From: Panopea generosa
Lineage: Eukaryota; Mollusca; Bivalvia; Adapedonta; Hiatellidae
NCBI GenBank assembly: GCA_029582155.1
Contig: CM055907.1
Span: 30,342,983-30,406,982, forward strand
Direction: 5' to 3'
DNA length: 64,000 nucleotides
Below the pieces are notes generated by a model. It saw only the letters and a program-made list of their open reading frames with translations, was not told the DNA's origin and made no database searches. Shown in pieces: positions 2,966-60,090 of this stretch. The position numbers and the translations under genes were made by a program. The stretch's first letter is position 1. The number at the start of each line of letters is the position of its first letter.

Positions 2966-4834
2966 CTATTGCTCGTTTCCAATATCACTTTTCGCCGCTG
3001 GTTCATAGGATTTGCTGCCCTTGTGTATGTCTCGCTTGATTAATCCAGATATATGTCGAAACCTCATACCATCGTAACCTTGCTTATTGTCTTGAAAGTT
3101 GTCGAAACCATTGTCATCAAAAATACCTCTTTTTATAAACCCGTACCCAATACGATCAAAATGACCTCTATCATTCCATGGGCTACGTCTTGAACGGACT
3201 GCATAAGTCTGATCATTGCTGTTGTCGAAACTTTCATCACGTCGAACAAGGCCTGAATTTATTCTATCGAAATAACGCTTATCTATAACATTATCAATAA
3301 GTTCTCCTTCGTCCTTTTTGACAAAGCCAGACCCGAGTCGATCAATTCGCCTTTTTGCCAATGGATCTCTTTTTACAAATCCACTAGATAATCTATCAAA
3401 ATATCGTTTTTCTTGATCAACGTCCATGTCTTGTTGGAAGTCGAATGGCATCGGGTTTTCTGCATTCTTCTTTATAAATCCACTAGTTAGTCTGTCAAAA
3501 CCTCTTTTGTCGTCATCCATATTTGATCCCTTTTTCACAAAACCCGAAGATAACCTGTCAAAATATCGCTTTTGGTGAGTTTCATCTACAAAATCATCAT
3601 TTCTTTTAACAAACCCAGAGGAAAGGCGATCTAAATAGCGCTTTTGGTATTCATTGAATACAGAGTTATCGAAACCATCATTCTTCTTTACAAATCCAGA
3701 CGAAAGACGATCAAATCCCCTCTTTTTCGGCTTTGTGTACTTATTTTTCTTTACGAAACCAGAACTCAACCTGTCAAATCCGCTTTTCTCCTGTTTTAAA
3801 TCAACTTTTTTTATGAAACCTGTTGATATACGGCCAAATGATCTCTTCGCAGAATCTTCTTCATAGTCTTTTTTCACAAATCCTGAACTAAGTCTATCAA
3901 ATCCTCTTTTAACACTGTTTAACTTGTTTTTCTTAATAAATCCGGACGACATACGATCCAAAGATCTCTTATCGGCACCGTCATGACCATCATCGACTGA
4001 TTTTTTTACGAATTCTGAACTAAGTCTATCAAATCCTCTTTTGTCATTGTTTGACTTACTTTTCTTAATAAATCCTGACGACATACGATCCAAAAACCTC
4101 TTATCGGTACTGCCACTGCTTCCATCGTCCGATTTTTTTACGAATCCTGAACTAAGTCTATCAAAACCTCTTTTATAACTGTCAAGTTGGCTTTTTTTAA
4201 TAAATCCTGATGCCATTCGATCAAAATATCGCTTCCCAGTATCAGTGTGAACTTGATTATCACCTGTAGATTCTGGTTTAACAACTTTAGCGGCTGAGAA
4301 GTCTATTTCTTTCTTCACAAAACCTGACGAAATTCTATCAATTGTTCGTTTATCGCTCTCTTGTTCCAACGAATCAATATCCTTTTTAACGTAATTGCTA
4401 GACAATTTGTCAAACCCTCTTTTGTGTCCCGAATCATTTTCCTCAGTTTGAACACTATTCTTCAATTCAGATGCTGTTAAAGAAGTATCGATCGTTGATC
4501 TTTTTCGTCTCACAAGACCCATACCGATTGAATCCATGTCTCTGTTTTCGTTTTCAATTTGGTCAGATTCAACTGTCTCCAGCATATCCAAAAGATTTAC
4601 GAACCGCTTTAACGAATCGATGTCAGACAACTTCGTTGTATAAATTTCTGGGTCATGTTGTAAATTAACAGTATCGTCACCACTTCTCTTTATAAATCCC
4701 CATGATATTCTATCCAACGACGGTCCTCTTTTATTGTCGAATCTTGATTTATAACTGTAACTGCGAGTTCCACGTAGGTGAAAAGGGTTGTATTGACGAT
4801 AGTAAGACTGAAAGGATGGTGGGTAAATAGACAT
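2966..4834 (-). CDS. Multicopy neuropeptide precursor, pedal peptide/orcokinin-like, main 3' exon
   Basis: The frame encodes 622 residues made of about 21 short repeats separated by acidic linkers. The core is GFDRLSSGFV; four copies are identical, and variants include YFDRLSSGFV, YLDRLSSGFV, FLDRMSSGFI, TIDRISSGFV and SFGRISTGFI. Nearly every copy is preceded by KR and followed by KK, KR or RR, as expected for prohormone-convertase processing in secretory granules. No Gly precedes the basic sites, so the peptides are probably not amidated. The D-x-L-S-x-G-F pattern resembles the pedal peptide/orcokinin family (for example YDPLSAGF in the starfish myorelaxant peptide); that assignment is inference. 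There is no signal peptide after the first ATG, and the frame stays open upstream to 4879 past a plausible splice acceptor, so at least one 5' exon carrying the signal peptide is missing. The stop is TAG at 2966-2968. The products should be secreted neuropeptides acting on a G-protein-coupled receptor. Confidence is high for a peptide precursor and moderate for the family. Confidence 0.88.
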   Translation of the reverse strand: MSIYPPSFQSYYRQYNPFHLRGTRSYSYKSRFDNKRGPSLDRISWGFIKRSGDDTVNLQHDPEIYTTKLSDIDSLKRFVNLLDMLETVESDQIENENRDMDSIGMGLVRRKRSTIDTSLTASELKNSVQTEENDSGHKRGFDKLSSNYVKKDIDSLEQESDKRTIDRISSGFVKKEIDFSAAKVVKPESTGDNQVHTDTGKRYFDRMASGFIKKSQLDSYKRGFDRLSSGFVKKSDDGSSGSTDKRFLDRMSSGFIKKSKSNNDKRGFDRLSSEFVKKSVDDGHDGADKRSLDRMSSGFIKKNKLNSVKRGFDRLSSGFVKKDYEEDSAKRSFGRISTGFIKKVDLKQEKSGFDRLSSGFVKKNKYTKPKKRGFDRLSSGFVKKNDGFDNSVFNEYQKRYLDRLSSGFVKRNDDFVDETHQKRYFDRLSSGFVKKGSNMDDDKRGFDRLTSGFIKKNAENPMPFDFQQDMDVDQEKRYFDRLSSGFVKRDPLAKRRIDRLGSGFVKKDEGELIDNVIDKRYFDRINSGLVRRDESFDNSNDQTYAVRSRRSPWNDRGHFDRIGYGFIKRGIFDDNGFDNFQDNKQGYDGMRFRHISGLIKRDIHKGSKSYEPAAKSDIGNEQ

Positions 4835-8034: not shown

Positions 8035-11000
8035 TTATTTACAAAGGTAAGATTCACGTCTTTGTAATATATTAAAGCAGGTTTTGACACAGACACGAAT
8101 CAAAGATGAGTGGGAAAATAAAAATACTATCTTATCAACATTTGACAAATTATAAAAATTATCATTAAATGCAGCTGCTTTTTTAAATAAAGCATTTCTA
8201 AGATCATTATAAAGATAGTATTCTAAAATTACATGACATTCATCTTCCACTGTATTACAAAATGAGCATTTTATATCTTCTAACCTTAGATTATCATATC
8301 TACCGGTGTCAGTTCTTGTTGGGGCAACACAACAACGAAACTTACTAAAAGCGGACCTATGTCTTAAAGGTAATATATTTTTACAATAATTTTCAACTTC
8401 AAATTGATTTTTAAATAAACGGTAGGTACGTTGTTTGTTTCGTCCTTTACCAGACATACTGTCTACTCGTCTTATAGGTGAAAACCAATCACTGGTATAA
8501 ATATCCAGAACTTGTGACGTCATCAACAAGAGTATGCACAGGGATATTAACATTAATATTTGAAAACTGATGAAGATTAAGTTATACAAACTGCCTTTTT
8601 ACAGTGTTCATCCAATTTTTACAGGAAACATTAGCTTTTAAGTAAGACCAGAGTGCAACCACCCATTTATTGAGTCTACTTTCATTCATAGAGGATAAAC
8701 GACAACAGTATGTAGAAATAGTTTTCCACTGACGAACAATAGTAGGTTACCAAGCCATTTCACCGACAACTGCTGAATTTGGCGTATATTTGCCAACCCC
8801 CATAAAGAATTGCATAGCATGGTTATGAATAGCATTAATACATGAAAACGATTTACAACCCCATATTGCAGCCCAATAATTAATTACAGGCCATACAATG
8901 GAGTCATAAAGTTTTTTATATACGTTATATGGGACTCCTCCAATAAATTTACATTTAGCAATTAAAAGACCAAGGGCACGACTTCCACTTTGCGCGACAG
9001 CTTTAGCTGTAACATTAAAATCCAAATGTTCTTGCAGTACTATACCAAGATAAGGTTTTACTAACCATGTTTAAGACATCATTACCACACTGGAACACAC
9101 ATTCAGTTTTAGGAGATGAAAATGGTCGAAAATGAATATCATTACTCTTGTTACTATTACATGTAAAAGACATATCATTTAAATCACAACAATCCGATTG
9201 AGCAGATACTAATCTCTGTAAATCTGTTTCATTTTCTGCCAATAGAACGATATTGTCGGCATACATTAAAATACAAATGTTATCATTATTTACCGATATT
9301 CCAGTATTAAGGCTTTTCAAATACAAAGCCAAATAATTAATAAATGAATTAAACAACAAAGGAGATAAAACACACCCTTGTCTATACCCACAATATACAT
9401 CAAACCACTCAGTTGTAAGGTTATTCACTCTAACACATGACGAAACAGAGGCGGATAATGACTTTAAAGCAAGAAGCATCTTACAACATATACCATTATC
9501 ATAAAGTCTTTTCCAAAGCATATCCCTATTCTTTGGCTTTTTCCTGGTATAAATAATATGATCTATCGTACTACGCTTTTTCCTAAACCCGTTCTGTTCA
9601 TCGACTATTTTGAAATTGTTTTCACATAATTCACTTAAAAGATTATTTAAAATACTACAGTACATTTTATACATAATAGTTGCTAATGCAATCCCTTTAT
9701 AAGCAAGGGGTGTCCCTTGGGTCCGCAGTAGAAAACTTGGGTATTGTGTTAATGATACATTTAACCCCAAATAGATGGAACTGTGCCATTATTTAAACAA
9801 ACATTAGATAAAACATAAGAAATAAAACGGACATATCATTACACAATACCTCACTTTGAACATTATTGATACCACAAGCTTTACCTCGCTTTGCAGTTTC
9901 AATGGCTTTTTTTACTTCAAATACAGACATTTTATCATTAAAAGGCAAATGTACAGTGTTACTATCGTCCGAGAAGTCTAAATGTAAATGTACCTTGGCA
10001 TTTCCATTACTATTATTGTAAAATAAAGAATTAAAATCAGCTTTCCACTAGTCCAAAACATCTGAAATAGATGTAGAAATAGAACCATCATGAAGTTTAA
10101 CTTCAAAAGGTATACATTTAGATTTGTTCTGGTTTACACCGATCTTACCGATTGACTTCCAGAACATGGACTGATCGACATTACAATCAGTAAGTAATTC
10201 ATTTTGTAAAGAGTACCAATAAAATCGCTTTGACTTGTGTACCTCACGATCAAATAATTTACGAACTTGTACATATTCAGAATTGAGATCTTTTTTAACA
10301 TTTCGTTGAGTACATTTAAGCCACCTTCGTTCGGCATTACTAACATCAGTCCATATTTCTGACAACCTCTCGGTCCACCACTGTTTACCAGGTCTACATC
10401 TTTTACTGTGTTGATTAGACTGTATAGTTTTAAAGGGCATATTATTCTTTACTATACTACACCAATCCTGATAAACACTATCGATATCAAGTTGTGTTTG
10501 TAATCCTTGCTCCAACTTGTCAATAGCAATATTTACATCAGTAAGCACTTCTGTATTATTTAGAAAATAATCTGGTAATTTAGTCAAATCAAATTTATCA
10601 TAACTATTACTAAGTGGTGTTTCAGTATCACAACGCAACATGTTAAAAGCAATGTTCAATTTTAACAAAGAATGATCTGGTATACAAGTTGGTGAAGAGA
10701 ACTCAAATCACCTTACCTGTTTATTAAACCCACAGTCCTAACAATTGAAAAAAATCTGTAAAACAAGACAAATCATCATGACCGCAAGTGCAATAATCTA
10801 CCGCTTACAAACCCTTAGTAGAAATAGAAGTATAATCGTTTTAAGAACAATTTCTCCCATTTAACATACACATATAAGTACTGATAATAAAATCTATAAA
10901 TAGCTCACCATAATGATTTGTTTTAAAATCGATAACATCCCGTTCAATAATATCATCATCGCCGTTAATAAAATCTTCCATATCTCCACATTTACTATTG

Positions 11001-39515: not shown

Positions 39516-40594
39516 ATGAAACGCGTTAATTTTAGATCAGCAATTAAAGAGAATGAAAGTCACAAAAAAATGCAGATAAATTATAGACCACAAAGGAAAT
39601 GTCAAAAATGCAGGAGAGATGGTCACCTGACTAGATTATGTAGGGTACGCGTCGCGTCGCGGAAGATAAATACATTTATTAGTAAACCACGAAATGACAG
39701 GAATAAAATTGTATGTTGGGTTTGCATAAAATAGGGCACATTAGGAGAGATTGTCTTCTCAACAATAAAAGGAGTTACTATAGAAATAGGGATAGTGCGC
39801 TCAGGAATTTCAGAACAAATAATGGGCATAGAGCTGATAAAAGACAGGGAAGCTGCAAATCCCGAGACATAGATTTGGGTGTGATGACTGGGGAAGGAAA
39901 AAAATCGCCCACCTACAAAATATCATTATCTGGGAATGCGAATTCTTGTTTAATTGATGTAGGAAAGAATCGTTTAAGATGTTTAGTAGATACAGGTGCC
40001 ATGGTTAGCTTAATTCATTACACAATATACAAAGAATTGAAGAATAAACCGAGATTAGAAAACAAATTTGCGAACTTACAATCAGTTGACGGTAGCTTAT
40101 TAAATGTGTTAGGTAGAATAAATTTTAAATTTAAATTGAAGGGAGAGAAAATTGAACACCCATTTTATGTAGTGTCAGACATGAATATAAAATGTAATAT
40201 TAGAGCAGGATTTTTTGTATGAAAATGGAGTTTATTATGATTTAGGATGTTTACGTATAAGGAAAGTAATGGTTCCGCTAGTAAGTGATATTCACATAGG
40301 CTCAGTTGTAAGATTAGATAGAAAGGTAACTTTGAAACCGAATTCACTGTAAGTATGTACAGGTAGAATTAAGAAGAATTCAAGCATTTTAGAAAATAAA
40401 AGTTATGTTATTGACAAGTTTGAGACAGGTCACATAAGTAAACGACCCGAATTAGTTATTGTGCAATCAGTAATTAAATGAAACAAAGCAGGAAAATTAC
40501 CAATCGTTATAGTTAATGATGAAAACTCAACTCAGAGTAAATTGAACGGGTACAATAATAGCACTTTAAATAAAATATCAGAAGTGTATGCAGT
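39516..40594 (+). pseudogene. Ty3/Gypsy gag C-terminus and protease remnant
   Basis: The first knuckle, CQKCRRDGHLTRLC, is a CX2CX4HX4C motif. The second begins CWVC in the same frame and continues as KIGHIRRDC in the next, so a one-base frameshift at about 39725 splits it. The protease follows in the second frame with RCLVDTGAMVSLIH; DTG is the aspartic protease active site. The frame ends at TGA at about 40220 and later sequence reads through further stops until the insertion at 40595. Gag would package RNA and the protease would mature the polyprotein. The capsid region is absent. Confidence 0.82.
40591..40594. other. Left target-site duplication CAGT
   Basis: CAGT directly precedes the left LTR and occurs again at 43657-43660 after the right LTR. 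A 4-bp duplication fits an LTR-element integrase. The left copy could be read one base longer or shorter. Confidence 0.6.
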
Positions 40595-41546
40595 TATTAC
40601 GTAACGATTTTGTACGTATAATGGACAGTTCGTCGTCAACGTAACGTGCGTTGTCGGACGTGCCGGTGCGTTGAGCGTTGTTTATTGATGAATGAGCAAA
40701 TGTTAGAGAAGTGTTGATGAAGTTGAATATACTAAAATAAATTTATTACGTTGAATGTCACAGACAGCAAACACGACGACACTTATCAATTTTCTATCAG
40801 TTTTAATATAATTTAAAGTCACACAGTTTATAATAAAATAGTTCCAAAGATATAGATATAAACAAAATCACAGTATTGTATCAAAGTTGTTATACCATTC
40901 ACTAAAATCTCACTATAAAAGCGGTGTCCATAACATAGACTATTTGCGAATAACTAAGATAAAAAAACGCTGTCCAAATATCGGATAACATCCAAATATA
41001 TATTAAGTTCACAAAGTTAAATTAAATTTTACAAAGTACTGACGGCTTTCCAATCTGTCTGGTAAACTATCCAGACAGTTACTATGTCCTAAAAGTTGTT
41101 CTCCCCTCATCCTCTATTAACTATTTCCTAAAATACTAAAATTGTTTTGTTTGCACATACATGGCTTTGGTATGGTTTAGATACTTAATCATTAAAAGAA
41201 AACATAAAGGCAAACAAGATATACTGGACAATACATGGTAAAAATGTTATGTACACCAAAATCAAAATGTTTTCACACCTTCAATTTCTATAATCAATTA
41301 GGCTTCAACAGTATATACATAAAACGAAAGTTTGGAATAATTTCACATAATACTGGATTAATAATCAGTTTAAGATAATAAGTGTTTACAGTAGTAGTTA
41401 AGATATCAAGATGTTGGCATTGAGCATATGTGAGAGCAGGTTTAACCAGCATTGACAAGTTGCATTTGAAGATAAAATGTAATAAAATTTTTTTAAATAA
41501 ACTAAAAAGTTGCTAAAGATATTTTCATAAAAATCACTCCATAATA
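40595..41546 (-). repeat. 3' LTR of the non-autonomous element
   Basis: In the element's sense (minus strand) this is the downstream LTR, directly after the polypurine tract. AATAAA hexamers on the minus strand at 40742-40747 and 40681-40686 could serve as poly(A) signals. It aligns base for base with 42704-43656 apart from about ten differences. Confidence 0.9.
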
Positions 41547-41561
41547 ACTTCCCCCTGTTTT
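41547..41561 (-). other. Polypurine tract
   Basis: The minus strand reads AAAACAGGGGGAAGT immediately before the 3' LTR, the position and composition expected for the primer of plus-strand DNA synthesis. Confidence 0.8.
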
Positions 41562-41666
41562 AGAAAATCTTTGTCCTCAAAGTTAATATAAATAACTGCA
41601 ATTAAAATAGTTCAACGTTTTTAATGTAATTGGCAATTTGTATAAACAGAGAAAGATTCTGTCCCT

Positions 41667-42656
41667 TTAAATATTCATCTGATTGCAATAGATTGTAAAG
41701 TGGCCCTTTCTTTTGCAATACGCACACACAGCTCCCTTGGCGACACATTTGTTTGATGGATGATATTTGTCACTACCACATTTATTGCAATAAAAATCAC
41801 AGGAACATGAAGGTCCCGTGCAATTTCTATCGACGTATTGGCTTAAACAAATAGTTCTAGATAAACTTCTTGTATCAGTCTTGGCAGTTGAGAGGCAATT
41901 TAACAATTTCTCGTCCTTGCTTCTAAGGCGCGAATGAACATTGGACAGATATTCGAATTCTGCACTTTTCTTTGATAATGTGATGTTCACCTCTTCGAGT
42001 TGCTGTTGAAGGTTGGAATACTTCTCTTCTAAAGTCGTATTTTCACTCTTCAGATTGTGAAACACGTTTTTCAGTTGCTCCATTTCATCTTTCACAATCT
42101 GGTAGTTGAGTTTACACTGTTGCTGTGTTTGTTGTTCATGCTGTATTATCATGTGCAGCTCATCGATATCTTCTTCTAATTTACCCATCTCGCTTGGATA
42201 AAAATTTAATCTCATTTCCGCTTCTATCTCTCTTATGTATTGCATTTTGATGTTGTCATATTTTGGTAACACTTTACTTAATTCATTATTTTCTACAGAA
42301 CTAAAAGGCATTTGAACACAAACAGATTTCCTTTCGTTATAATTAATCATTCTGACACGATCACGTTGTTGCTTTTTAGCCGATTTCTGATTTTTAGATT
42401 TTTCCGAATATGATTTATTACTAGTTACACTTGATACACATCCGGTAGGTTTCCTGGAAAAGTCCAAGTTGTTGTTGCTGTGTGGACATGATTTGGCATA
42501 ATGTCCGTAGTTTCTGCATACGAAACACTGTCTTGACAGAGCCTTGCAATAGTGGTTATAAACAACATACTCACTACATCTCCGGCACGTCCTGGCTTCT
42601 AATTTCTGCTGTTGAATGGTAGGCACTCGCTTTTGGGGTATTTGATAACAATCCAT
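41667..42656 (-). CDS. Gag-like protein: zinc knuckle, coiled coil, two zinc knuckles
   Basis: The ATG at 42656 gives 329 residues; the frame is open 24 bases further to a GTG, which I do not use. An early Cys pair (C24, C27) precedes a zinc knuckle CFVCRNYGHYAKSC at residues 44-57. A Lys/Ser-rich basic stretch follows (about 75-105), then a Glu/Gln/Leu-rich region (about 155-260) that should form a coiled coil. Two C-terminal knuckles lie at residues 290-304 (C-x2-C-x5-H-x4-C) and 311-324 (CAYCKRKGHFTIYC). Zinc knuckles of this type bind RNA in retrotransposon Gag nucleocapsids. The usual capsid domain is not evident; the coiled coil may provide assembly instead. The frame is intact, unlike all its transposon neighbours, which suggests recent arrival or selection. 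The start lies only 47 bases after the 5' LTR. Function is inferred from motifs alone. Confidence 0.8.
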   Translation of the reverse strand: MDCYQIPQKRVPTIQQQKLEARTCRRCSEYVVYNHYCKALSRQCFVCRNYGHYAKSCPHSNNNLDFSRKPTGCVSSVTSNKSYSEKSKNQKSAKKQQRDRVRMINYNERKSVCVQMPFSSVENNELSKVLPKYDNIKMQYIREIEAEMRLNFYPSEMGKLEEDIDELHMIIQHEQQTQQQCKLNYQIVKDEMEQLKNVFHNLKSENTTLEEKYSNLQQQLEEVNITLSKKSAEFEYLSNVHSRLRSKDEKLLNCLSTAKTDTRSLSRTICLSQYVDRNCTGPSCSCDFYCNKCGSDKYHPSNKCVAKGAVCAYCKRKGHFTIYCNQMNI

Positions 42657-42684
42657 TTTGTGAGAGGGAACCGGAAACACGATA

Positions 42685-42701
42685 CCACTGATTCTGCGCC
42701 A
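42685..42701 (-). other. Primer-binding site
   Basis: Two bases after the end of the 5' LTR the minus strand reads TGGCGCAGAATCAGTGG. TGG complements the CCA end of a tRNA and the position is right for minus-strand priming. The tRNA was not identified. Confidence 0.75.
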
Positions 42702-42703
42702 GT

Positions 42704-43656
42704 TATTACGTAACGATTATAAACGTATTATGGACAGTTCGTCGTCAACGTAACGTGCGTTGTCGGACGTGCCGGTGCGTTGAGCGTTGTTTATTGATGA
42801 ATGAGCAAATGTTAGAGAAGTGTTGATGAAGTTGAATATACTAAAATAAATTTATTAGGTTGAGTGTCACAGACAGCAAACACGACGACACTTATCAATT
42901 TTCTATCAGTTTTAATATAATTTAAAGTCACACAGTTTATAATAAAATAGTTCCAAAGATATAGATATAAACAAAATCACAGTATTGTATCAAAGTTGTT
43001 ATACCATTCACTAAAATCTCACTATAAAAGCGGTGTCCATAACATAGACTATTTGCGAATAACTAAGATAAAAAAAACGCTGTCCAAATATCGGATAACA
43101 TCCAAATATATATTAAGTTCACAAAGTTAAATTAAATTTTACAAAGTACTGACGGCTTTCCAATCTGTCTGGTAAACTATCCAGACAGTTACTATGTCCT
43201 AAAAGTTGTTCTCCCCTCATCCTCTATTAACTATTTCCTAAAATACTAAAATTGTTTTGTTTGCACATACATGGCTTTGGTATGGTTTAGATACTTAATC
43301 ATTAAAAGAAAACATAAAGGCAAACAAGATATACTGGACAATACATGGTAAAAATGTTATGTACACCAAAATCAAAATGTTTTCACACCTTCAATTTCTA
43401 TAATCAATTAGGCTTCAACAGTATATACATAAAACGAAAGTTTGGAATAATTTCACATAATACTGGATTAATAATCAGTTTAAGCTAATAAGTGTTTACA
43501 GTAGTAGTTAAGATATCAAGATGTTGGCATTGAGCATATGTGAGAGCAGGTTTAACCAGCATTGACAAGTTGCATTTGAAGATAAAATGTAATAAAATAT
43601 TTATAAATAAACTAAAAAGTTGCTTAAGATATTTTCATAAAAATCACTCCATAATA
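42704..43656 (-). repeat. 5' LTR of the non-autonomous element
   Basis: The upstream LTR in the element's sense. Differences from the other LTR include GATTATAAACG against GATTTTGTACG near one end, one extra A in an A-run and GCTAATAAG against GATAATAAG. A plus-strand open frame at 43540-43920 begins inside this LTR and runs into the Ty3/Gypsy RT; the fusion is accidental. Confidence 0.9.
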
Positions 43657-43660
43657 CAGT
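43657..43660. other. Right target-site duplication CAGT
   Basis: Matches 40591-40594. Beyond it the interrupted Ty3/Gypsy pol resumes. Confidence 0.6.
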
Positions 43661-45144
43661 CAGTGACACATTTTTTAAAAAAGGCAAATAATCAGTCTAA
43701 ACAGTCAATTGATGACATTTTCACGCAAATAAGCGCACCTGAAGAACATAACGATAAAATAGCTGAATTTTTGTATAGAAATCAAAGTACCATATCAGTA
43801 TCAGCGACTGATGTAGATGACACAGATCTTTTACAAATGCGAATAGACACAGGAACTAGTGATCCCATTAAAGTAAGGCCATATAGAATACCGTTAATTG
43901 ACTTAAAATATGTAAATTAAGCGGTAGATGAACTTTTAACGACAGGTATAATAAGTAGATCGCGTAGTCCGTACTCTGCTCTACTTCTGCTGGTAAGCAA
44001 AAAAATAGTAATGAGAAGCGAATGTGTATAGACTTTCGTGGTCTTAATGAGGTAGTAAAAGGTTACGCTTTTTCTGTTACCCAGAATTGATTCAGTGTTA
44101 GATAAATTAGGTAATAACGCCATATTCTCCTCAATAGATTTACGCAGTGTTTTTCTGTGTAGGTATACATCCAAGAGATAGCGAGAAAACAGCATTTAGC
44201 ACTTCTAAAGGTCTTATGGAATGGAATCGGACTCTATTTGGACTCAGAACGTCACCGAGCTTATTCTCAGAAGTTATGACGCGCGCGCTGAACGGGTTAG
44301 AATATTGTGCAATTCCATTTTGGTAAGACTATTGAAGAGTATTTAGTACACTTGCAAATGGTACTAGGCAGGTTCAAAGAACATAAGTTGAAAATGAAAT
44401 TAAGTAACTGTCAGTTTATGAAACCTGAAACTAAACACTTGGGGTTTATTGTTAACAAAGATAGTATTAAACAAGATGCACAAAAAGTACAAGCGATAAA
44501 AGGGTTAGCTCCACCCACTACAGATAAGGCAGTCCGTAGTTTTGTAGCTATGCTTGGCTATTATAGACGATTTGTACCAAATTTTAGCAAAATAGCAGAA
44601 CCACTTATTAATCTGACAAGAAATGCTAGATTTAAATGGGATGAGAATTGTCAATTAGCATTTGAAACATTAAAATCAAGTAAAGCAGAAGCTCCATTAT
44701 TAGTTTATCCAGATATGAATAAGAGATTCATTTTGTACACCGACGCTAGTAATAGCTCAACGGGAGCTGTGTTAGAGATGAAATGTGAACAGATGTAAAA
44801 AAAAACCTATGTACTTTCTTTCTCACAAATTATCGCGTACGCAAATCAAGTGGCCGATTATTGAAAAGGAGATGTTTTCAGTAGTTTACGCTGTGTCACA
44901 CTTTCATCATTATTTACATGGGTCTAAGGTACTAATTTACACTGACCACAAACCACTGCAATATATTCTTGAGAAACAGCAATTCAATAATCGTAAGGTA
45001 GCTATGTCTGGATTACTTATTCAGTCATATGATGTAGAGATAAAACACATCCCAGGGAAAGACAATATTGTAAATACGTATTATCACGAATACCGGAAGG
45101 GAATTCTCAAGATAATGAAACCGAGGAACTGTCCTCAGAAATAG
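43657..45144 (+). pseudogene. Ty3/Gypsy reverse transcriptase and RNase H remnant
   Basis: The RT N-terminus reads IDTGTSDPIKVRPYRIPL, then RSRSPYSALLL and CIDFRGLNEVV in successive frames. After GLEYCAIP the sequence jumps to FGKTIEEYLVHLQMVLGRF. The segment that should hold the YxDD catalytic box is missing, apparently a short deletion with a frame change at about 44327. The connection domain and RNase H follow: PETKHLGFIVNKDSI, VAMLGYYRRFVPNFSKIAEP, FILYTDASNSSTGAVL, a stop/frame break at about 44800, then SHKLSRTQIKWPIIEKE and IYTDHKPLQYI. The enzyme would copy element RNA into DNA. This copy has lost the active site. Confidence 0.85.
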
Positions 45145-46440
45145 GTGTAGTCGATAGGGCTTTCTTAGTAAATACAAAAGACACGTCAAATATTGACCCA
45201 CTTAAATATCTACACGCTCAGGCAACTGTAATACATGACGAAGGGAAACAAAAGTTACTATATATTAATATGCAGGAAGAACCATCAAAAGATGATGAGA
45301 TTGTCAAAATTAAAAAGTCATTGAATGATGGCAGTGCCAATAAAACTACCGATCGAAACTTTCTAGTGCTTGAAGAGATTCTGAATTTTGTAGCAAATGC
45401 CGACAGTGAAGCTGTTCTGAGGTTGTACGTTCCGTCACATCTGACTGATGTGGTGTTAAAAAGTTATCATGATTTGGGGCATGTTGAGATAGATAAGACG
45501 GTTGATATGATTAAACAAAAGTATTATTTTTCAAACCTGTATAAATGCGTGATTGAGTACATAGAGAAATGTGTACCTTGTCAACAGCAACGGGTCGCAG
45601 CGATTAAGCCACCTATGGGAGAAACCGAAATGAATCCGTATCCATTTATTAAAATTGCTGCTGACATCAGTGGACCATATCCAACAACGCTTTCCGGTAA
45701 CATGTATATATATACTGTTACATGTACATACTCAGGCTGGATTGAATCATATCCATTGCCAAATAAGTCAAATGACTTGATTTTGTACGTGCTACTCTAG
45801 GAAATTTTTACAAGACATTCTATACCCCTCGTATATCTGAGTGATAACGGAAGTGAGAATGTGTCCCGAAAAGTTATAAAGACACTCACTTACTGAATGT
45901 TAAGTGCATAACAACTAGCTTTTACTCACCACAAGGTAACGGACGTGTTGAAGTTTCACACACCAATCTGATAGATATGTTATCAAAGAAAATTAAGCAT
46001 GACCCTACTACTTGGGATCTATTTCTTAATCAGTCTAGCTGCAATTCGAATGACAGTTAATCAGTCAAGCAAAACAACTTCGTTTAGTCTCTTATATACC
46101 AGAGACGCGACATTTCCAACAGACAAAGTACTTACCCCAAGGCGCAAGTATTTTGGTACTGATGCTCATGAAATAGCGTTACAAGAATGTATCACCGTAT
46201 GAAGGGTCTAAAATGCAAAAGAGCTAATAAGGCAAAGGGAGCGAGCAGTGAAGTAGAATTTAAAGTTGGACAGGCAGTATACTTGAGAAATCACTTAAGA
46301 AAAAGTAAGTTGGATCCAAGGTAGATACCCTTTTATAGGATAATTGAACAGAAATCACCTCTGACTTTTATTATCAAAAATTATCTTGATGGGAAGACTA
46401 GAGAAACTCATGCTAGGCAAATAAAACCTTCAATTTAGAG
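45145..46440 (+). pseudogene. Ty3/Gypsy integrase remnant
   Basis: The HHCC zinc-binding domain is visible as SYHDLGHVEIDKTVDMI and KCVPCQQQ in the frame 45270-45800. The catalytic core starts ADISGPYPTTLSGN and continues TYSGWIESYPLP to a stop at about 45800. Later frames give LSDNGSEN, then YSPQGNGRVEVSHTNL (the core Glu region), then VGQAVYLRNHLRKSKLDPR and KTRETHARQIKP of the C-terminal domain. The integrase would insert the cDNA. At least three stops or frame changes disable it. Confidence 0.83.
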
Positions 46441-50140: not shown

Positions 50141-51650
50141 CTGAACAAAATAAGTAGCTTCCGCTGTGTTTGAGTGCAGATATATGTAAATATGAAAACA
50201 AGAGTTAAATTATTTTTATATGAATTGCAAGAGTATTTCAATGTGAATTTGTGTGAAATTTTTTATGTCTCTACATTTATGGAGAACTGATGAAATGGTT
50301 GATTAAATGTGGTAGGGGTCGTACACCAAACTCACACATTAATACCGGGTATGGCCACTTCAGACATCGAGGACTGTCTGGCATCAGTGACTCATAGAAC
50401 CGACAAGTGTGTTGATTTCGGCCTGTGGAATGTTGTTCCAGTCCTGAATTAAGGCTTGTGATGTTCGACGGTGGAATAGGGCGAAGTCTAACACGCTTGT
50501 CCAAATTATCCCACATGTGTTCGATGGGATTCATATCTGGGCTTTTGGCGGCCCAGTCATCAATAAATGCAATGTTATTCGTCCTGAGGAAATTCACAGT
50601 ATCTCTAGTTGTATGGCTTGTGGCATTATCCTGTTGAAACAGAATGATATTGGCATTATTTTGAAACATTGGGATGACGTGCCTCGCAAGAATCTCATCG
50701 GTAGCGTTGGTCATTCAAATTCCCATAGATCACGACGAAAGGTGTGCGATAGCCATGCGCAATGCCTGCCCAGACCATGACGGAACCTCCACCCACAAAA
50801 CGATCTGGTTTAAGTACACAGCAGTCGGCATAACGTTCATTTCTTCTACGGTATACTCGAACCCTGCCATCACTCCAATGAATGGAAAATCTTGACTCAT
50901 CGGAGAAGAGAACACTATTCAATTGTTGCTTTACCCAGCGATTGTGTGTACGTGCCAAACTAACACGATTAACGCAATGACGTCGCGTCATAACACAGCC
51001 AACGTAAAAACGACATCCAAGTAGACCACCTTCGCGCAGACGATTGCGTACAGTTTGGTCAGATATTCGGTTGTTATGTGTACCAGGGGTGTTTGCAGAA
51101 GTGGCAGTGGCAGTTTGGAAACGATTGCGTAGGTTGGTGTTCATGATATAGCGGTCTTGCCCATGCGTCGTGACGCGAGGACGTCCACTACGTGGTAAAT
51201 CTTCCGTACGTCCTGTTGCTTGAAAACGTTTCCTAAGGTTTCGAATAGCACGGCAAGAACTGCCAACAATCCTAGCAACCTCATTCGTCGCAATACCAGC
51301 ATTAAGCATGTCAATGGCACGTTCACGTAAATTTGGTGGAATTCTAGGCATATCAAAAAGAAAGAAAACTGAATTTTTTTTTCAACGTTTTTTTCTTATT
51401 GACAACAAAGTCTATAAAATCAGACTGAAAGGTTTGGTTTCATAATCACGGATAATGCTGGTCCGTGCATGCACCAGGAAATCGACATAAACGTTTTCTT
51501 TTTTGTGTAATGCGTACAATCCAGTTACAATAGGTTTTATTTGACAATTAATCGTTAGCCCGAACATATGTAGGCCATTTGATATGTTGATTTCTTTTTA
51601 TAACAGTAAAAATATACGTATAGAAATCGGAAGTTTCTTTTTTGTTTCAT
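50141..51650 (-). mobile_element. Tc1-like DNA transposon, 1.51 kb, inserted in LINE copy 2
   Basis: Imperfect terminal inverted repeats of 23 bases lie at 50141-50163 and 51628-51650 (about 17 of 23 matching, best over the inner CTTCCG). TA occurs outside each end (50139-50140 and 51651-51652), the Tc1/mariner target duplication. LINE endonuclease sequence matching copy 1 stops at the left end and resumes at the right. The transposase is on the minus strand with two frame breaks, so the copy is inactive. Confidence 0.88.
50277..51351 (-). pseudogene. Tc1-like transposase, frameshifted, DD35E spacing
   Basis: ATG at 51351 opens MPRIPPNLRERAIDMLNAG, a paired-type helix-turn-helix domain with a second helix region (RRAI-like, RKRFQATGRTEDLPRSGRPR). 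The first catalytic Asp is in VLFSDESRFS and a conserved GGGSVMVWAGI follows. The frame ends after GNLNDQRYR at 50695 and resumes one base out at DEILARHVIP. The second Asp is in FQQDNATSH and the Glu in DMNPIEHMWD, with 35 residues between them against 34 in classic Tc1. A second shift near 50455 garbles the C-terminus, whose intended frame reads LIQDWNNIPQAEI. The enzyme would cut and paste the element at TA sites. Confidence 0.88.
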
Positions 51651-55640: not shown

Positions 55641-58600
55641 TTCGTGATATGGTTAGCGGCTGGGGTAAGCCAGGCAGGGTGGACCTGCTAACCAGGCTTG
55701 TGTATGATATGGTTAGGGGGTTCGGTATGGGAGGCAAGGAGGACCTGCTAACCAGTCTTATGTAAGATATGGTTAGGGGGTGGGGTAAGCCAGGCAGAGT
55801 GGACCTACTAACCAGGCTTATGTATGATATGGTTAGGAGTTGGGGTAAGCGAGTCAGGGCGCACCTGCTAACCAGGCTTATCAATGATATGGTTAGGGGG
55901 TGGTGTGAGCGAGGAAGGGTGAACCTGCTAACCAGGCTTATGTATGATATGGTTAGCAGATTGGGTAAATGAGGCAGGGTGGACCTGCTAACCAGGCTTG
56001 TGTATGATATGGTAAGCAGATTGGGTAAACGAGGCAGGGTGGACCTGCTAACCAGGCTTGTGTATGATATGGTTAGGGGGTGGGGTGAGCGAGACAGGGT
56101 GGACCTGCTAACCAGGCTTATGTATGATATGGTTAGAAGGTGGGGTGAGCGAGACAGGGTGGACCTGCTAACCAGGCTTATGTATGATATGGTTAGCAGA
56201 TTGGGTAAACGAGGCAGGGTGGACCTGCTAACCAGGCTTGTGTATGATATGGTTAGGGTGTTGGGTAAGCGAGGCAGGGTGGACTTACTAACCAGGCTTA
56301 TGTATGATATGGTTAGGGTGTTGGGTGAGCTAGACAGGGTGGACCTGCTAACCAGGCTTATGTATGATATGGTTAGGGGGTGGGATGAGCGAGACAGGGT
56401 GGACCTGCTAACCAGGCTTATGTATGATATGGTTAGCGGATTGGGTAAGTGAGACAGGGTGGACCTGCTAACCAGGCTTATGTATGATATGGTTAGGGAG
56501 TTGGGTAAGCGAGGCAGGGTGGACCTGCTAACCAGGCTTATGTATGATATGGTTAGGGAGTTGGGTAAGCGAGGCAGGGTGGACCTGCTAACCAGGCTTA
56601 TGTATGATATGGTTAGGGGGTGGGATGAGCGAGACAGGGTGGACCTGCTAACCAGGCTTATGTATGATATGGTTAGCGGATTGGGTAAGTGAGACAGGGT
56701 GGACCTGCTAACCAGGCTTATGTATGATATGGTTAGGGAGTTGGGTAAGCGAGGCAGGGTGGACCTACTAACCAGGCTTATGTATGATATGGTTAGGGTG
56801 TGTGTTAAAAAACCAGACAGGGTGGAACTGCTAACCAGGATTATGTATGATATGGTTAGCGGGTGGGGTAAGCGGGACAGGTTGGACCTGCTTACCAGCT
56901 AATGTATGATATGGTTAGGTGGTGGGGTAAGCGATGCAGGTTGGAGCTGCTAACCAGTCTTATGTATGATATGGTCAGTGGATTGGGTAAGCAAGGCAGT
57001 GTGGCCCTGCTAGCCAGGCTTATGTATGATATAGTTAGGGGGCGGGGTAAGGGAGGCAAAGAGAACCTGCTAACAAGGCTTATGTATCATATTGTTAGGG
57101 AGTTGGTTAAGCAAGGCTGGCTGCACCTACTAACCAGGCTTATGTATCATATTGTTAGGGGTGGGTTAAGCCAGGCTGCCTGCACCTACTAACCAGGTTT
57201 ATGTATGATATAGTTAGGTGGTGGGGTAAGCGAGGCTTGGTGGACCAATTAACCATGCTTATGTATGACATGGTTAGTGGGTGGGGTAAGCCAGGCAGAG
57301 TGGATCTGCTAACCAGGCTTATGTTTGATATGGTTAGTGGGTTGGGTAAGGGAGGCAGGGTGCACTTGCTAACCAGGATTATGTATGCTATGGTTAGTGG
57401 GTGAGGTAAGCGAGGCACGGTGCACTTGCTACATTGTAACCAGGCTTATGTATGATATGGTTAGGGGCTGGGGTAAGCCAGGCAGGGTGGAACTGCTAAC
57501 CAGGTTTATGTGTGATATGTTTAGGGTGTGGAGTAAGCCAGACAGAGTGCACCTGTTAACCAGGATTATGTATGCTATAGTTAGTGGGTGAGGTAAGCGA
57601 GGCACGTTGCACTTGCTAACCAGGCTTATGTATGATATGGTTAGGGGTAGGGGTAAGCATGGCAGGGTGGACATGCTAATCAGACTTCTGTATGATATGG
57701 TTAGGGGCTGGGGTTAGCCAGGCAGGGTGGAACTGCTAACCAGGCTTATGTGTGATATGTTTAGGGTGTGGAGTAAGCCAGACAGAGTGAACCTGTTAAC
57801 CAGGCTTATGTATGAAATGGTAAGGGGGTGAGGTAAGCGAAGCAAGGTGGACCTGCTAAGCAGGCTTATGTATGATAATATTAGTTTGTGGGGTACGCGA
57901 GGCACGCTGAACCTGCTGACCAGTCTTATGTATGATATGGTTAGGGGTAGTGGTAAGAGAGGCAGGGTGCACTTGCTAACCAGGCTTATGTATGATATTA
58001 ATAGGGGTCGGGGTAAACCAGGCAGGGTGGACCTGCTAACCAGGATTATGTATGAAATGGTAAGGGGGTGGGGTAAGCGAGGCAGAGCGGCCTTGCTAAC
58101 CAGACTTATGTATGGTATGGTTAGGGGGTGGGGTAAGCCAGGCAGGGTGGATCTGCTAACTAGGCTTATGTATGATATGGTTAGGGGATGGGGTAAGACA
58201 GGCAGGGTGCACTTGCTAACCAGGCTTATGTGTGATATGATTAGGGGGTGGGGTAAGCCAGGCAGGTTGGACCTGCTAACCAGGATTATGTATGATATGG
58301 TAAGTTTGTGGGGTAAGCGATGTAGGGCGGACCTGCTAGCCAGGCTTATGTATGAATTGGATAGGGGGTGGGGTAAGCGAGGCAGGGCGGCCCTGCTAAC
58401 CAGACTTTTGTATGATATGGTTAGGGGGTGGGGTAAGCCAGGCAGGGTGGACCTGCTAACCAGGCTTATGTATGATATGGTTAGGGGATGGGGTAAGCGA
58501 AGCAGGGTGGACCTGGTAACCATGCTTATGTATGATATGGTTAGTGGGTGGGGAAAGCGACCAGGTTGGACCTGCTTACCAGTCTTATGCATGATATGGT

Positions 58601-60090
58601 TAGTGGGTTGGGTAAGGGCGGCAAGGAGAACCTGTTTACCAGGCTTGTGTATGATATGGTTAGGGGATGGGGTAAGACAGGCAGAGTGGACCTACTAATC
58701 AGGCTTATGTATAATATGGTTAGTGGGATGGGTAAGGGAGGCAGGGTGCACTTGCTAACCAGGATTATGTATGATATGGTAAGAGGATGGGGTAAGCCAG
58801 GCAGGGTGGACCTGCTAACCAGGCTTATATATGATATGGTTAGATGGTGGGATAAGCCAGGCAAGGTGGACCTGCTAACAAGGCTTATCTATGGTATGGT
58901 TATGGAGTGGGGTAAGCCAGGCAGGGTGGACCTGCTAACCAGGATTATGTATGATATGGTTAGAGGATGGGGTAAGCCAGGCAAGGTGGACCTGCTAACC
59001 AGGTTTATATATGATATGGTTAGATGGTGGGATAAGCCAGGCAAGGTGGACCTGCTAACAAGGCTTATGTATGGTATGGTTATGGAGTGGGGTAAGCCAG
59101 GCAGGGTGGACCTGCTAACCAGGCTTATATATGATATGGTTAGATGGTGGGATAAGCCAGGCAAGGTGGACCTGCTAACAAAGCTTATGTATGATATGTT
59201 TATGGAGTGGGGTAAGCCAGGCAGGGTGGACCTGCTAACCAGGCTTATATATGATATGGTTAGGTGGTGGGATAAGCCAGGCAGGGTGGACCTGCTAACA
59301 AGGCTTATGTATGATATGTTTATGGAGTGGGGTAAGCCAGGCAGGGTGGACCTGCTAACCAGGATTATGTATGATATGGTTAGAGGATGGGGTAAGCCAG
59401 GCAGGGTGGACCTGCTAACCAGGCTTATATATGATATGGTTAGATGGTGGGATAAGCCAGGCAAGGTTGACCTGCTAACGAGGCTTATGTATGATAAGTT
59501 TATGGAGTGGGGTAAGCCAGGCAGGGTGGACCTGCTAACCAGGCTTATGTATTATATAGTTAGGGGGCGGGATAAGCCAGTCAGGGTGGACCTGCTAATC
59601 AGGCTTATGTATTATATGGTTAGGGGGCGGGATAAGCCAGTCAGGGTGGACCTGCTAATCAGGCTTATGTATTATATGGTTAGGGGGCGGGATAAGCCAG
59701 TCAGGGATGACCTGCTAATCAGGCTTATGTATCAGATGGTTAGGGGGTGGGATAAGCGAGGCAGGGTCACTTGCTAACCAGGCTTATGTATGATATGGTT
59801 AGGGGGCGGGATAAGCCAGTCAGGGTGGACCTGCTAATCAGGCTTATGTATGATATGGTTAGGCGGTGGAGTAAGCCAGACAGTTCGGACCTGCTAACCA
59901 GGCTTATGTGTGATATGGTTAGGGGTGGTGTAAGCAAGGCATGGTGCACCTTCTAACCATTTTTTTGTATGATATGGTAAGGGTGTATCATAATCGAGGC
60001 AGGATGCACCTGCTATCTAGACTGATGTATAATATGGTTATGGGTTGGGGTAAGCGAGGTAGGGTTGACCTGTTAACCAGGCTGATGATC
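55641..60090. repeat. Minisatellite array, 60-bp monomer, about 74 copies, open on both strands
   Basis: The monomer is GGCAGGGTGGACCTGCTAAC + CAGGCTTATGTATGATATGG + TTAGGGGGTGGGGTAAGCCA, almost always 60 bases (20 codons). It has no stop in one frame per strand, so long frames arise: 58548-59777 plus (409 codons, motif MVRGWGKPGRVDLLTRLMYD) and 57714-58592 minus (292 codons, motif SLVSRSTLPGLPHPLTISYI). Frames break at small indels and stops and change register along the array, and there is no flanking start, signal peptide or exon. I treat it as noncoding. It contains TTAGGG and G-runs in each unit. Confidence 0.93.
58743..59520. repeat. Higher-order repeat inside the 60-bp array
   Basis: Three monomer types alternate: A (TTAGAGGATGGGGTAAG), B (TTAGATGGTGGGATAAG) and C (TTATGGAGTGGGGTAAG). 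The order read by eye is A B C A B C B C B C A B C. A 240-base shift also aligns 56341-56520 with 56581-56760. Confidence 0.85.

Follow-up and report, generated by a model that had tools for sequence, protein, structure and literature searches.

The stretch of DNA analyzed here (the window: 64,000 nucleotides, C14 30342983-30406982, from a genome of 1.47 Gb) contains on its minus strand, at 40595-43656, a complete LTR retrotransposon of 3062 bp, as read from the sequence. The family that it represents, F1, is a real, recently active element with an unusual protein. Together with the sister families F2, F3 and F4 it probably constitutes a non-autonomous LTR lineage that retains its own protein, is without capsid and pol, and is mobilized by a Ty3/Gypsy helper; as such, it has the appearance of a parasite that has long lived on larger retrotransposons. 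Among known systems F1 is nearest to the TR-GAG elements of plants, of which it is a capsid-less animal variant.

Structure of F1 and its copies in the genome

The two LTRs of the window copy, of 952 and 953 bp, stand in direct orientation and differ by 10 mismatches and one gap column over 952 aligned columns (left 40595-41546, right 42704-43656). Within the interior, the longest open frame has 344 codons; over 500 dimer shuffles, the maximum is 188 and the mean 85. Read in the orientation of the element, the 5' LTR end is CGTAATA/AC/TGGCGCAGAATCAGTGGT and the interior end is AACAGGGGGAAGT/TATTATGG. The ends of the linear DNA, GT/TATTATGG ... CGTAATA/AC, include on each side two bases that are outside the integrated LTR, as would be expected if the integrase trims two bases; trimming of this type is established biology for retroviruses and for Ty3. 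The features of the element, and those of its surroundings, are the following:

40591..40594, no strand: target-site duplication CAGT, left copy (sequence)
40595..41546, minus: 3' LTR in element orientation, 952 bp, starting with TATTATGG and ending with CGTAATA (sequence, LTR alignment)
40681..40686, minus: AATAAA in the 3' LTR, a possible polyadenylation signal (LTR motif listing)
41547..41559, minus: polypurine tract AACAGGGGGAAGT, adjoining the 3' LTR (sequence)
41667..42656, minus: single intact ORF with ATG start, 329 aa (open frame exceeds 500 shuffles)
41685..41789, minus: C-terminal zinc-knuckle pair, residues 290-324 (motif by eye; resembles the nucleocapsid of Gypsy L051)
41874..42197, minus: long helix or coiled coil, residues 154-261 (best-confidence part of the AlphaFold2 model)
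42486..42587, minus: N-terminal zinc-knuckle pair, residues 24-57 (sub-threshold zf-CCHC; resembles the family P nucleocapsid)
42684..42701, minus: primer-binding-site position TGGCGCAGAATCAGTGGT, 18 nt, 2 nt inside the 5' LTR (sequence; tRNA-Ala-type sites here in older copies and sister families)
42704..43656, minus: 5' LTR in element orientation, 953 bp (sequence, LTR alignment)
43657..43660, no strand: target-site duplication CAGT, right copy (sequence)
39713-40222, strand opposite to F1: protease match of the host Gypsy remnant (domain match)
44307-44798, strand opposite to F1: RNase H of the host Gypsy remnant (domain match)
45270-45800, strand opposite to F1: integrase zinc-binding domain of the host Gypsy remnant (domain match)

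A first-pass annotation of the window had placed both ends of the element exactly, and the LTRs, the 4-bp duplication, the polypurine tract, the primer-site position and the intact ORF that it listed are all present; it was likewise correct in finding no pol in the interior, which consists of 1157 bp with a single ORF of 329 aa. The window copy is nested in an apparently decayed Gypsy element of the opposite strand. No Rfam family is recognized in the region 40500-43800 at E up to 1, and the element accordingly has neither a tRNA nor a 5S promoter.

Searching the genome with the F1 LTR gave 42 matches (40 of 461 candidates scored), and searching it with the F1 protein gave 54 matches at E up to 0.001 (122 of 131 candidates scored); one of the latter, on C16, sits in an open frame of 647 aa. 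Near-full copies of F1, that of the window included, are 11 in number, with interiors 97-100% identical to that of the window, which agrees with the expectation of the first-pass annotation that many copies would carry the same short interior. The ORF is intact in seven of these copies, has one stop in three, and is frameshifted in one. Perfect 4-bp duplications flank 9 of the 10 copies that have two complete LTRs, the tenth (on C15) being part of a tandem array. LTRs devoid of interior occur 13 times among the loci L001-L030, and 9 of the 13 have perfect duplications (L002, L013, L019 and L023 do not).

It is as the short unit that F1 has recently multiplied. The insertions at C5:81.76 Mb and C13:12.21 Mb are 99.97% identical over 3066 bp (approximately one difference), and they have different duplications and unrelated flanks; furthermore, the LTR pairs are identical within the C1 copy and within the C13 copy. 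We also scanned the genome for the junction between LTR and primer site. With up to two mismatches allowed there are 41 matches, versus 22 for a reversed control pattern, so that the two-mismatch rows are near noise; at no more than one mismatch, 13 of 14 junctions belong to F1 and are each located directly before an F1 ORF, of which, in one case within the C15 array, only the first 35 residues are present. Pol is found behind none of these 13 junctions. The fourteenth match (C15:52665905, L056) is not an element. Since F1 multiplies without pol, it must be mobilized in trans, and the dependence on enzymes supplied in trans that had been proposed from the window copy is therefore borne out by a unit that has multiplied without pol in eleven near-full copies.

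The F1 protein and its sister families

With the F1 protein as query, the Pfam library returns a zinc knuckle below threshold (16.8 bits, as compared with a cut-off of 20.8) and coiled-coil-type matches that are also sub-threshold. No Gag or capsid model is matched by F1 at E up to 10, or by F2 at E up to 0.1, while Retrotrans_gag (1.2e-13) and Ty3_capsid (1.1e-7) are both picked up by this library in the Ty3/Gypsy family P, which is described in the next section; the domain by which TR-GAG elements are defined is thus not recognized in F1, and the term 'gag-like' of the first-pass annotation does not apply in the strict sense. The double-knuckle/coiled-coil architecture that it had also proposed is retained as regards the coiled coil, and is refined as regards the knuckles to two pairs, one at each end of the protein (residues 24-57 and 290-324). 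An AlphaFold2 model based on 7 sequences (mean pLDDT 55.6, pTM 0.26) reaches good confidence in one part alone, a long helix spanning residues 154-261 approximately; no capsid fold is visible in this model, which is too weak to exclude a small domain. A search of 5.8 billion proteins yielded no relatives, either with the ORF alone (482 candidates) or with a two-row profile of F1 and F2 (1687 candidates), and the best E value in a sequence search of the PDB was 0.19.

The F1 ORF has accumulated fewer amino-acid changes than expected without constraint. Pooled over ten young copies, Nd/N is 0.0101 and Sd/S is 0.0312; in the same copies, 22 distinct departures from the majority codon are synonymous and 38 are non-synonymous or stop, which corresponds to a rate ratio of 0.39. 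The values of dN/dS for single copies with respect to the window range from 0.17 to 0.84, with few changes each, and those for the older copies L059 and L060 are 0.67 and 0.55.

Diverged families that have LTRs, or pieces of them, show the same succession of knuckle pair, coiled coil and knuckle pair. F2 (L052) is an LTR element built on the plan of F1, with an ORF of 361 aa and LTR copies that are 99% alike over 783 bp; its protein is colinear with that of F1, at 26% identity over 317 aa (E 4e-18 in a single comparison), and its ORF is represented by three full copies, two of them without stops, and by one piece of 91 residues. F3 (L053, L054) and F4 (L067) are decayed, and display a knuckle pair, a helix-type stretch and a second knuckle pair in the same order as F1. 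A search with the F2 LTR gave 26 matches (25 of 25 candidates scored). Two loci considered as full-length F2 on the basis of LTR spacing or open frame (L064, L065) were rejected, as the F2 LTR that each contains is followed by neither a primer site nor an ORF. We also note an F2 LTR pair at C4:49463228/49465476 and a decayed F2-like piece at C5:71603996.

The knuckle pairs were compared with two reference nucleocapsids, those of family P and of L051, using stretches picked by eye and shuffles in which cysteines and histidines were kept fixed. For F1 to F4 respectively, the N-terminal pairs have z values of 3.2, 5.0, 2.3 and 4.4 versus P, and of 1.0, 1.3, 2.4 and 2.0 versus L051; the C-terminal pairs have z values of 4.9, 3.1, 4.5 and 3.5 versus L051, and of 2.2, 0.9, 2.3 and 3.2 versus P. 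The N-terminal pair of F3 and the C-terminal pair of F4 do not discriminate between the two references. Because the N-terminal pairs mostly favor P and the C-terminal pairs favor L051, these scores suggest that the two ends of the protein may derive from two different nucleocapsid lineages. L051, a match of the F1 protein search, was itself considered as a helper and discarded: it is a Ty3/Gypsy gag-pol element with a different primer site and a different LTR end, and for this reason it was used only as a source of nucleocapsid sequence.

LTR elements often give rise to non-autonomous deletion derivatives, and one could therefore regard F1 as an ordinary internal-deletion derivative of a single autonomous element, in which the ORF is a left-over gag with no role in transposition. 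The presence of broken ORFs in 4 of the 11 near-full copies, some of which still have near-identical LTRs (C1), fits an RNA that is mobilized whatever the state of its own ORF, or in trans. We nevertheless consider this explanation unlikely: there is no pol behind the 13 F1 junctions or at the F2 LTR loci that were read (25 of 25 F2 candidates scored), the entire ORF is conserved between F1 and F2 at 26% identity and is under constraint, and a capsid, which would be expected in a left-over gag, is not recognized, although that of P is.

Family P and the primer-binding site

No pol-bearing autonomous relative with a similar LTR was found among the LTR candidates scored (40 of 461 for F1, 25 of 25 for F2); with this coverage of the F1 candidates, a relative that carries pol could have escaped notice if its F1 LTR is more diverged. 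Family P (L055, L061-L063) has, according to Pfam, a Ty3-type capsid and reverse transcriptase in L061, and a protease and integrase in L055. Its LTR starts with TATTATC after GGCAGAGGGAAAC, and its LTR end is CCCCGTAATA/AC/TGGTGGAGAA. P and F1 have in common the LTR termini TATTAT...GTAATA, the 2-nt spacer AC and the style of the polypurine tract; the body of the P LTR has no similarity to that of F1 beyond short pieces at chance level. All copies of P that we read are damaged, and the one on C6 has an aberrant 5' end, of which only the last 140 bp match its own 3' LTR.

The P element L055 and the F3 element L053 have the same primer site, complementary over all of its 18 bases to tRNA-Ala(AGC). 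The identical run with this tRNA-Ala primer site amounts to 13 bases in F2, 10 in P L061, 8 in F4 and 7 in the older F1 copy L043; the young F1 site of the window agrees at 12 of 18 bases, with a longest run of 3. A scan for TAATA-NN-TGGTGGAGAATC with up to one mismatch produced 23 matches, versus 3 for the control; the pattern occurs without mismatch four times, in two older F1 copies, in F3 L053 and in P L055. Nine of the 23 matches could be attributed by their coordinates, eight to short elements and one to P; three of the remaining 14 share one sequence, perhaps that of another family. In view of the tRNA-Ala-type sites in older F1 copies and in the sister families, a primer site of this type seems to have existed earlier in the F1 lineage and to have changed in the young copies.

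Common termini, spacer and primer site fit mobilization by a P-like helper. That family P itself is this helper is a plausible identification, toward which, on balance, we remain slightly on the skeptical side. The first-pass annotation had named as support for its reading a full-length relative sharing LTR, primer site and polypurine tract with the short unit, and P corresponds to this description in part: it resembles F1 in the LTR termini, the spacer AC and the style of the polypurine tract, its tRNA-Ala site (that of L055) is shared by F3 and partly by F2, and its nucleocapsid resembles the N-terminal knuckles of the F1 protein; it differs from F1 in having a Ty3-type capsid, protease, reverse transcriptase and integrase, in its unrelated LTR body, and from the young F1 copies in the primer site.

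Proposed mobilization, and comparison with known systems

The mode of action that we infer for the F1 protein involves the following steps. Transcription of F1 would start in the LTR; the protein would oligomerize through its coiled coil, bind the RNA of the element by means of its knuckles, and steer this RNA into the particles of a Ty3/Gypsy helper; the helper would provide capsid, protease, reverse transcriptase and RNase H in trans, and its integrase would recognize the TATTAT...GTAATA ends and produce the 4-bp duplications. The best candidate for the helper lineage is family P or a close relative. More tentatively, it is possible that the only gene of the element encodes a dedicated adaptor, in which two nucleocapsid modules, each akin to a different Ty3/Gypsy lineage, are connected by the coiled coil, are free of any capsid, and bridge the RNA of the element to foreign Gag particles; if this were true, the element would have specialized in its own packaging, rather than in its own copying.

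According to a different hypothesis, the protein would serve in the evasion of defence, in RNA export, or as an interfering decoy that lowers the activity of the helper, and the RNA would ride in helper particles by virtue of its own cis signals. Copies with a broken ORF (C1) have also moved recently, from which it follows that the protein may act in trans or outside packaging; on the other hand, nucleocapsid-type knuckles at both ends would point to contact with RNA or with particles, and we regard this hypothesis as quite improbable. Finally, the capture of a host gene for a knuckle/coiled-coil protein, subsequently carried by an LTR element, would accord with the lack of any match in the 5.8-billion-protein search and with parts that are not those of a standard Gag, but it is very improbable, as the protein is present in four diverged families, none of the 54 genome matches was recognized as a host gene (about half of them were read beyond their table rows), and both knuckle pairs resemble Gypsy nucleocapsids. 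Two outcomes that the first-pass annotation had singled out as contrary to its reading, namely a full pol gene in most copies, and an ORF that is an ordinary host gene captured once, were looked for and not found within the candidates scored.

A non-autonomous lineage mobilized by a Ty3/Gypsy helper, which is the reading that we prefer, can be placed alongside several known systems. In the accessible parts of PMC8704663 and PMC9784723, the plant TR-GAG elements are described as having two LTRs, one ORF and no pol, and as being mobilized in trans; one of them transposes in Arabidopsis ddm1 (PMC8704663), and the Arabidopsis example has a full GAG of 562 aa and a closely similar autonomous relative (PMC8704663, PMC9784723). 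As far as these descriptions go, F1 is like TR-GAG in its two LTRs, single ORF, absence of pol and, by inference, mobilization in trans, and differs from it in having two knuckle pairs; neither a Gag or capsid domain nor an autonomous relative with the same LTR was recognized. The comparison with TR-GAG, originally drawn from the window copy, is valid for a unit that multiplies without pol, and does not extend to the GAG domain or, among the LTR candidates scored, to an autonomous relative with a similar LTR.

TRIMs are reported, in the accessible text of PMC6934838 and PMC10886601, to be shorter than 1000 bp and non-coding; the same sources describe the biv-TRIM, small non-autonomous LTR elements of bivalves for which no autonomous partner was found, and Helenus, an animal element with 4-bp duplications. 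On the strength of that text, F1 resembles biv-TRIM and Helenus as a small non-autonomous LTR element of an animal, and Helenus also in its 4-bp duplications; at 3062 bp, with a conserved ORF of 329 aa, it falls outside the size and the non-coding character by which TRIMs are recognized.

The first-pass annotation had further considered that an animal element of this kind would be new. This is too strong, since the mammalian MaLR/THE1 elements have a gag-like ORF and no pol, are mobilized by another family, and derive from ERVL, a vertebrate retrovirus lineage. F1 can be likened to MaLR/THE1 by description, not by sequence, as an animal LTR element with a short interior lacking pol; it differs from them in that their ORF is gag-derived and their lineage is ERVL. 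MaLRs are classified as nonautonomous ERVLs in the accessible part of PMC10089650. No comparable animal element was encountered in the literature searched, a search that Repbase and most subscription journals lay beyond and that does not imply absence from print.

In the portions of the compared papers that are accessible, non-autonomous LTR elements are either non-coding (TRIM), or encode just one retroelement protein, be it a plain Gag or a different one (TR-GAG and the TR-types of PMC9784723). A capsid-less nucleocapsid/coiled-coil protein kept across diverged families would suggest a parasite retroelement that lives on RNA handling alone, and entry into helper particles would become a question about one small protein. 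F1 also adds to what is probably a bivalve genome a recently active, protein-coding, non-autonomous LTR family, the bivalve cases found in the literature being, in its accessible parts, of the non-coding TRIM type.

With regard to the source of the DNA, no TTAGGG or TTAGG arrays are present in seven contig-end stretches. Elsewhere in the window, the gene at 2966-4834 (minus strand) has 14 relatives at E up to 0.001, and those with a named source come from two bivalves, Mya arenaria and Dreissena polymorpha, or from a snail, Babylonia areolata; these sources support an animal origin of the genome.

Surroundings of the window copy

The window copy of F1, the short LTR retrotransposon family that carries neither capsid nor pol, sits within a Ty3/Gypsy element, the two being in opposite orientations with the Gypsy pieces on the plus strand. 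These pieces are listed here together with other features of the window:

2966-4834, minus strand, 622-aa ORF with numerous FDRLSSGFVKK-like repeats and dibasic sites
9015-9770, minus strand, reverse transcriptase piece
39713-40222, plus strand, Ty3/Gypsy protease piece
44307-44798, plus strand, Ty3/Gypsy RNase H piece
45270-45800, plus strand, Ty3/Gypsy integrase zinc-binding domain piece
50695-51351, minus strand, Tc1/Tc3-type transposase piece
55979-59777, long coding-like tandem-repeat array with several reading frames open

With its repeats and dibasic sites, the ORF at 2966-4834 resembles a neuropeptide precursor. The named proteins related to it come from Mya arenaria, Dreissena polymorpha and Babylonia areolata, and all of them are uncharacterized.

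Junction-like sites elsewhere in the genome

Three identical junction-like sites (LTR end, 2-nt spacer and primer-site start), TAATAGCTGGTGGAGAACC, are found at C9:48164133, C9:49855958 and C16:57199767 of the same genome (G000), and perhaps represent an additional LTR family whose primer site is of the tRNA-Ala type.

Arrangement of individual F1 and P copies

At C15:60400000-60408500 (L038) the layout is tandem: a complete F1 element has directly beside it a further 142 bp of interior sequence and 90 bp of LTR sequence. A short repeat, TTCTTATTCCGGGGCCACCTGG or its complement, borders an F1 solo LTR (L023, C7:65372835) on its broken side; the same repeat lies within the aberrant 5' end of the C6 copy (L061/L063) of P, the Ty3/Gypsy family with capsid and pol, and also precedes the 3' LTR of that copy.
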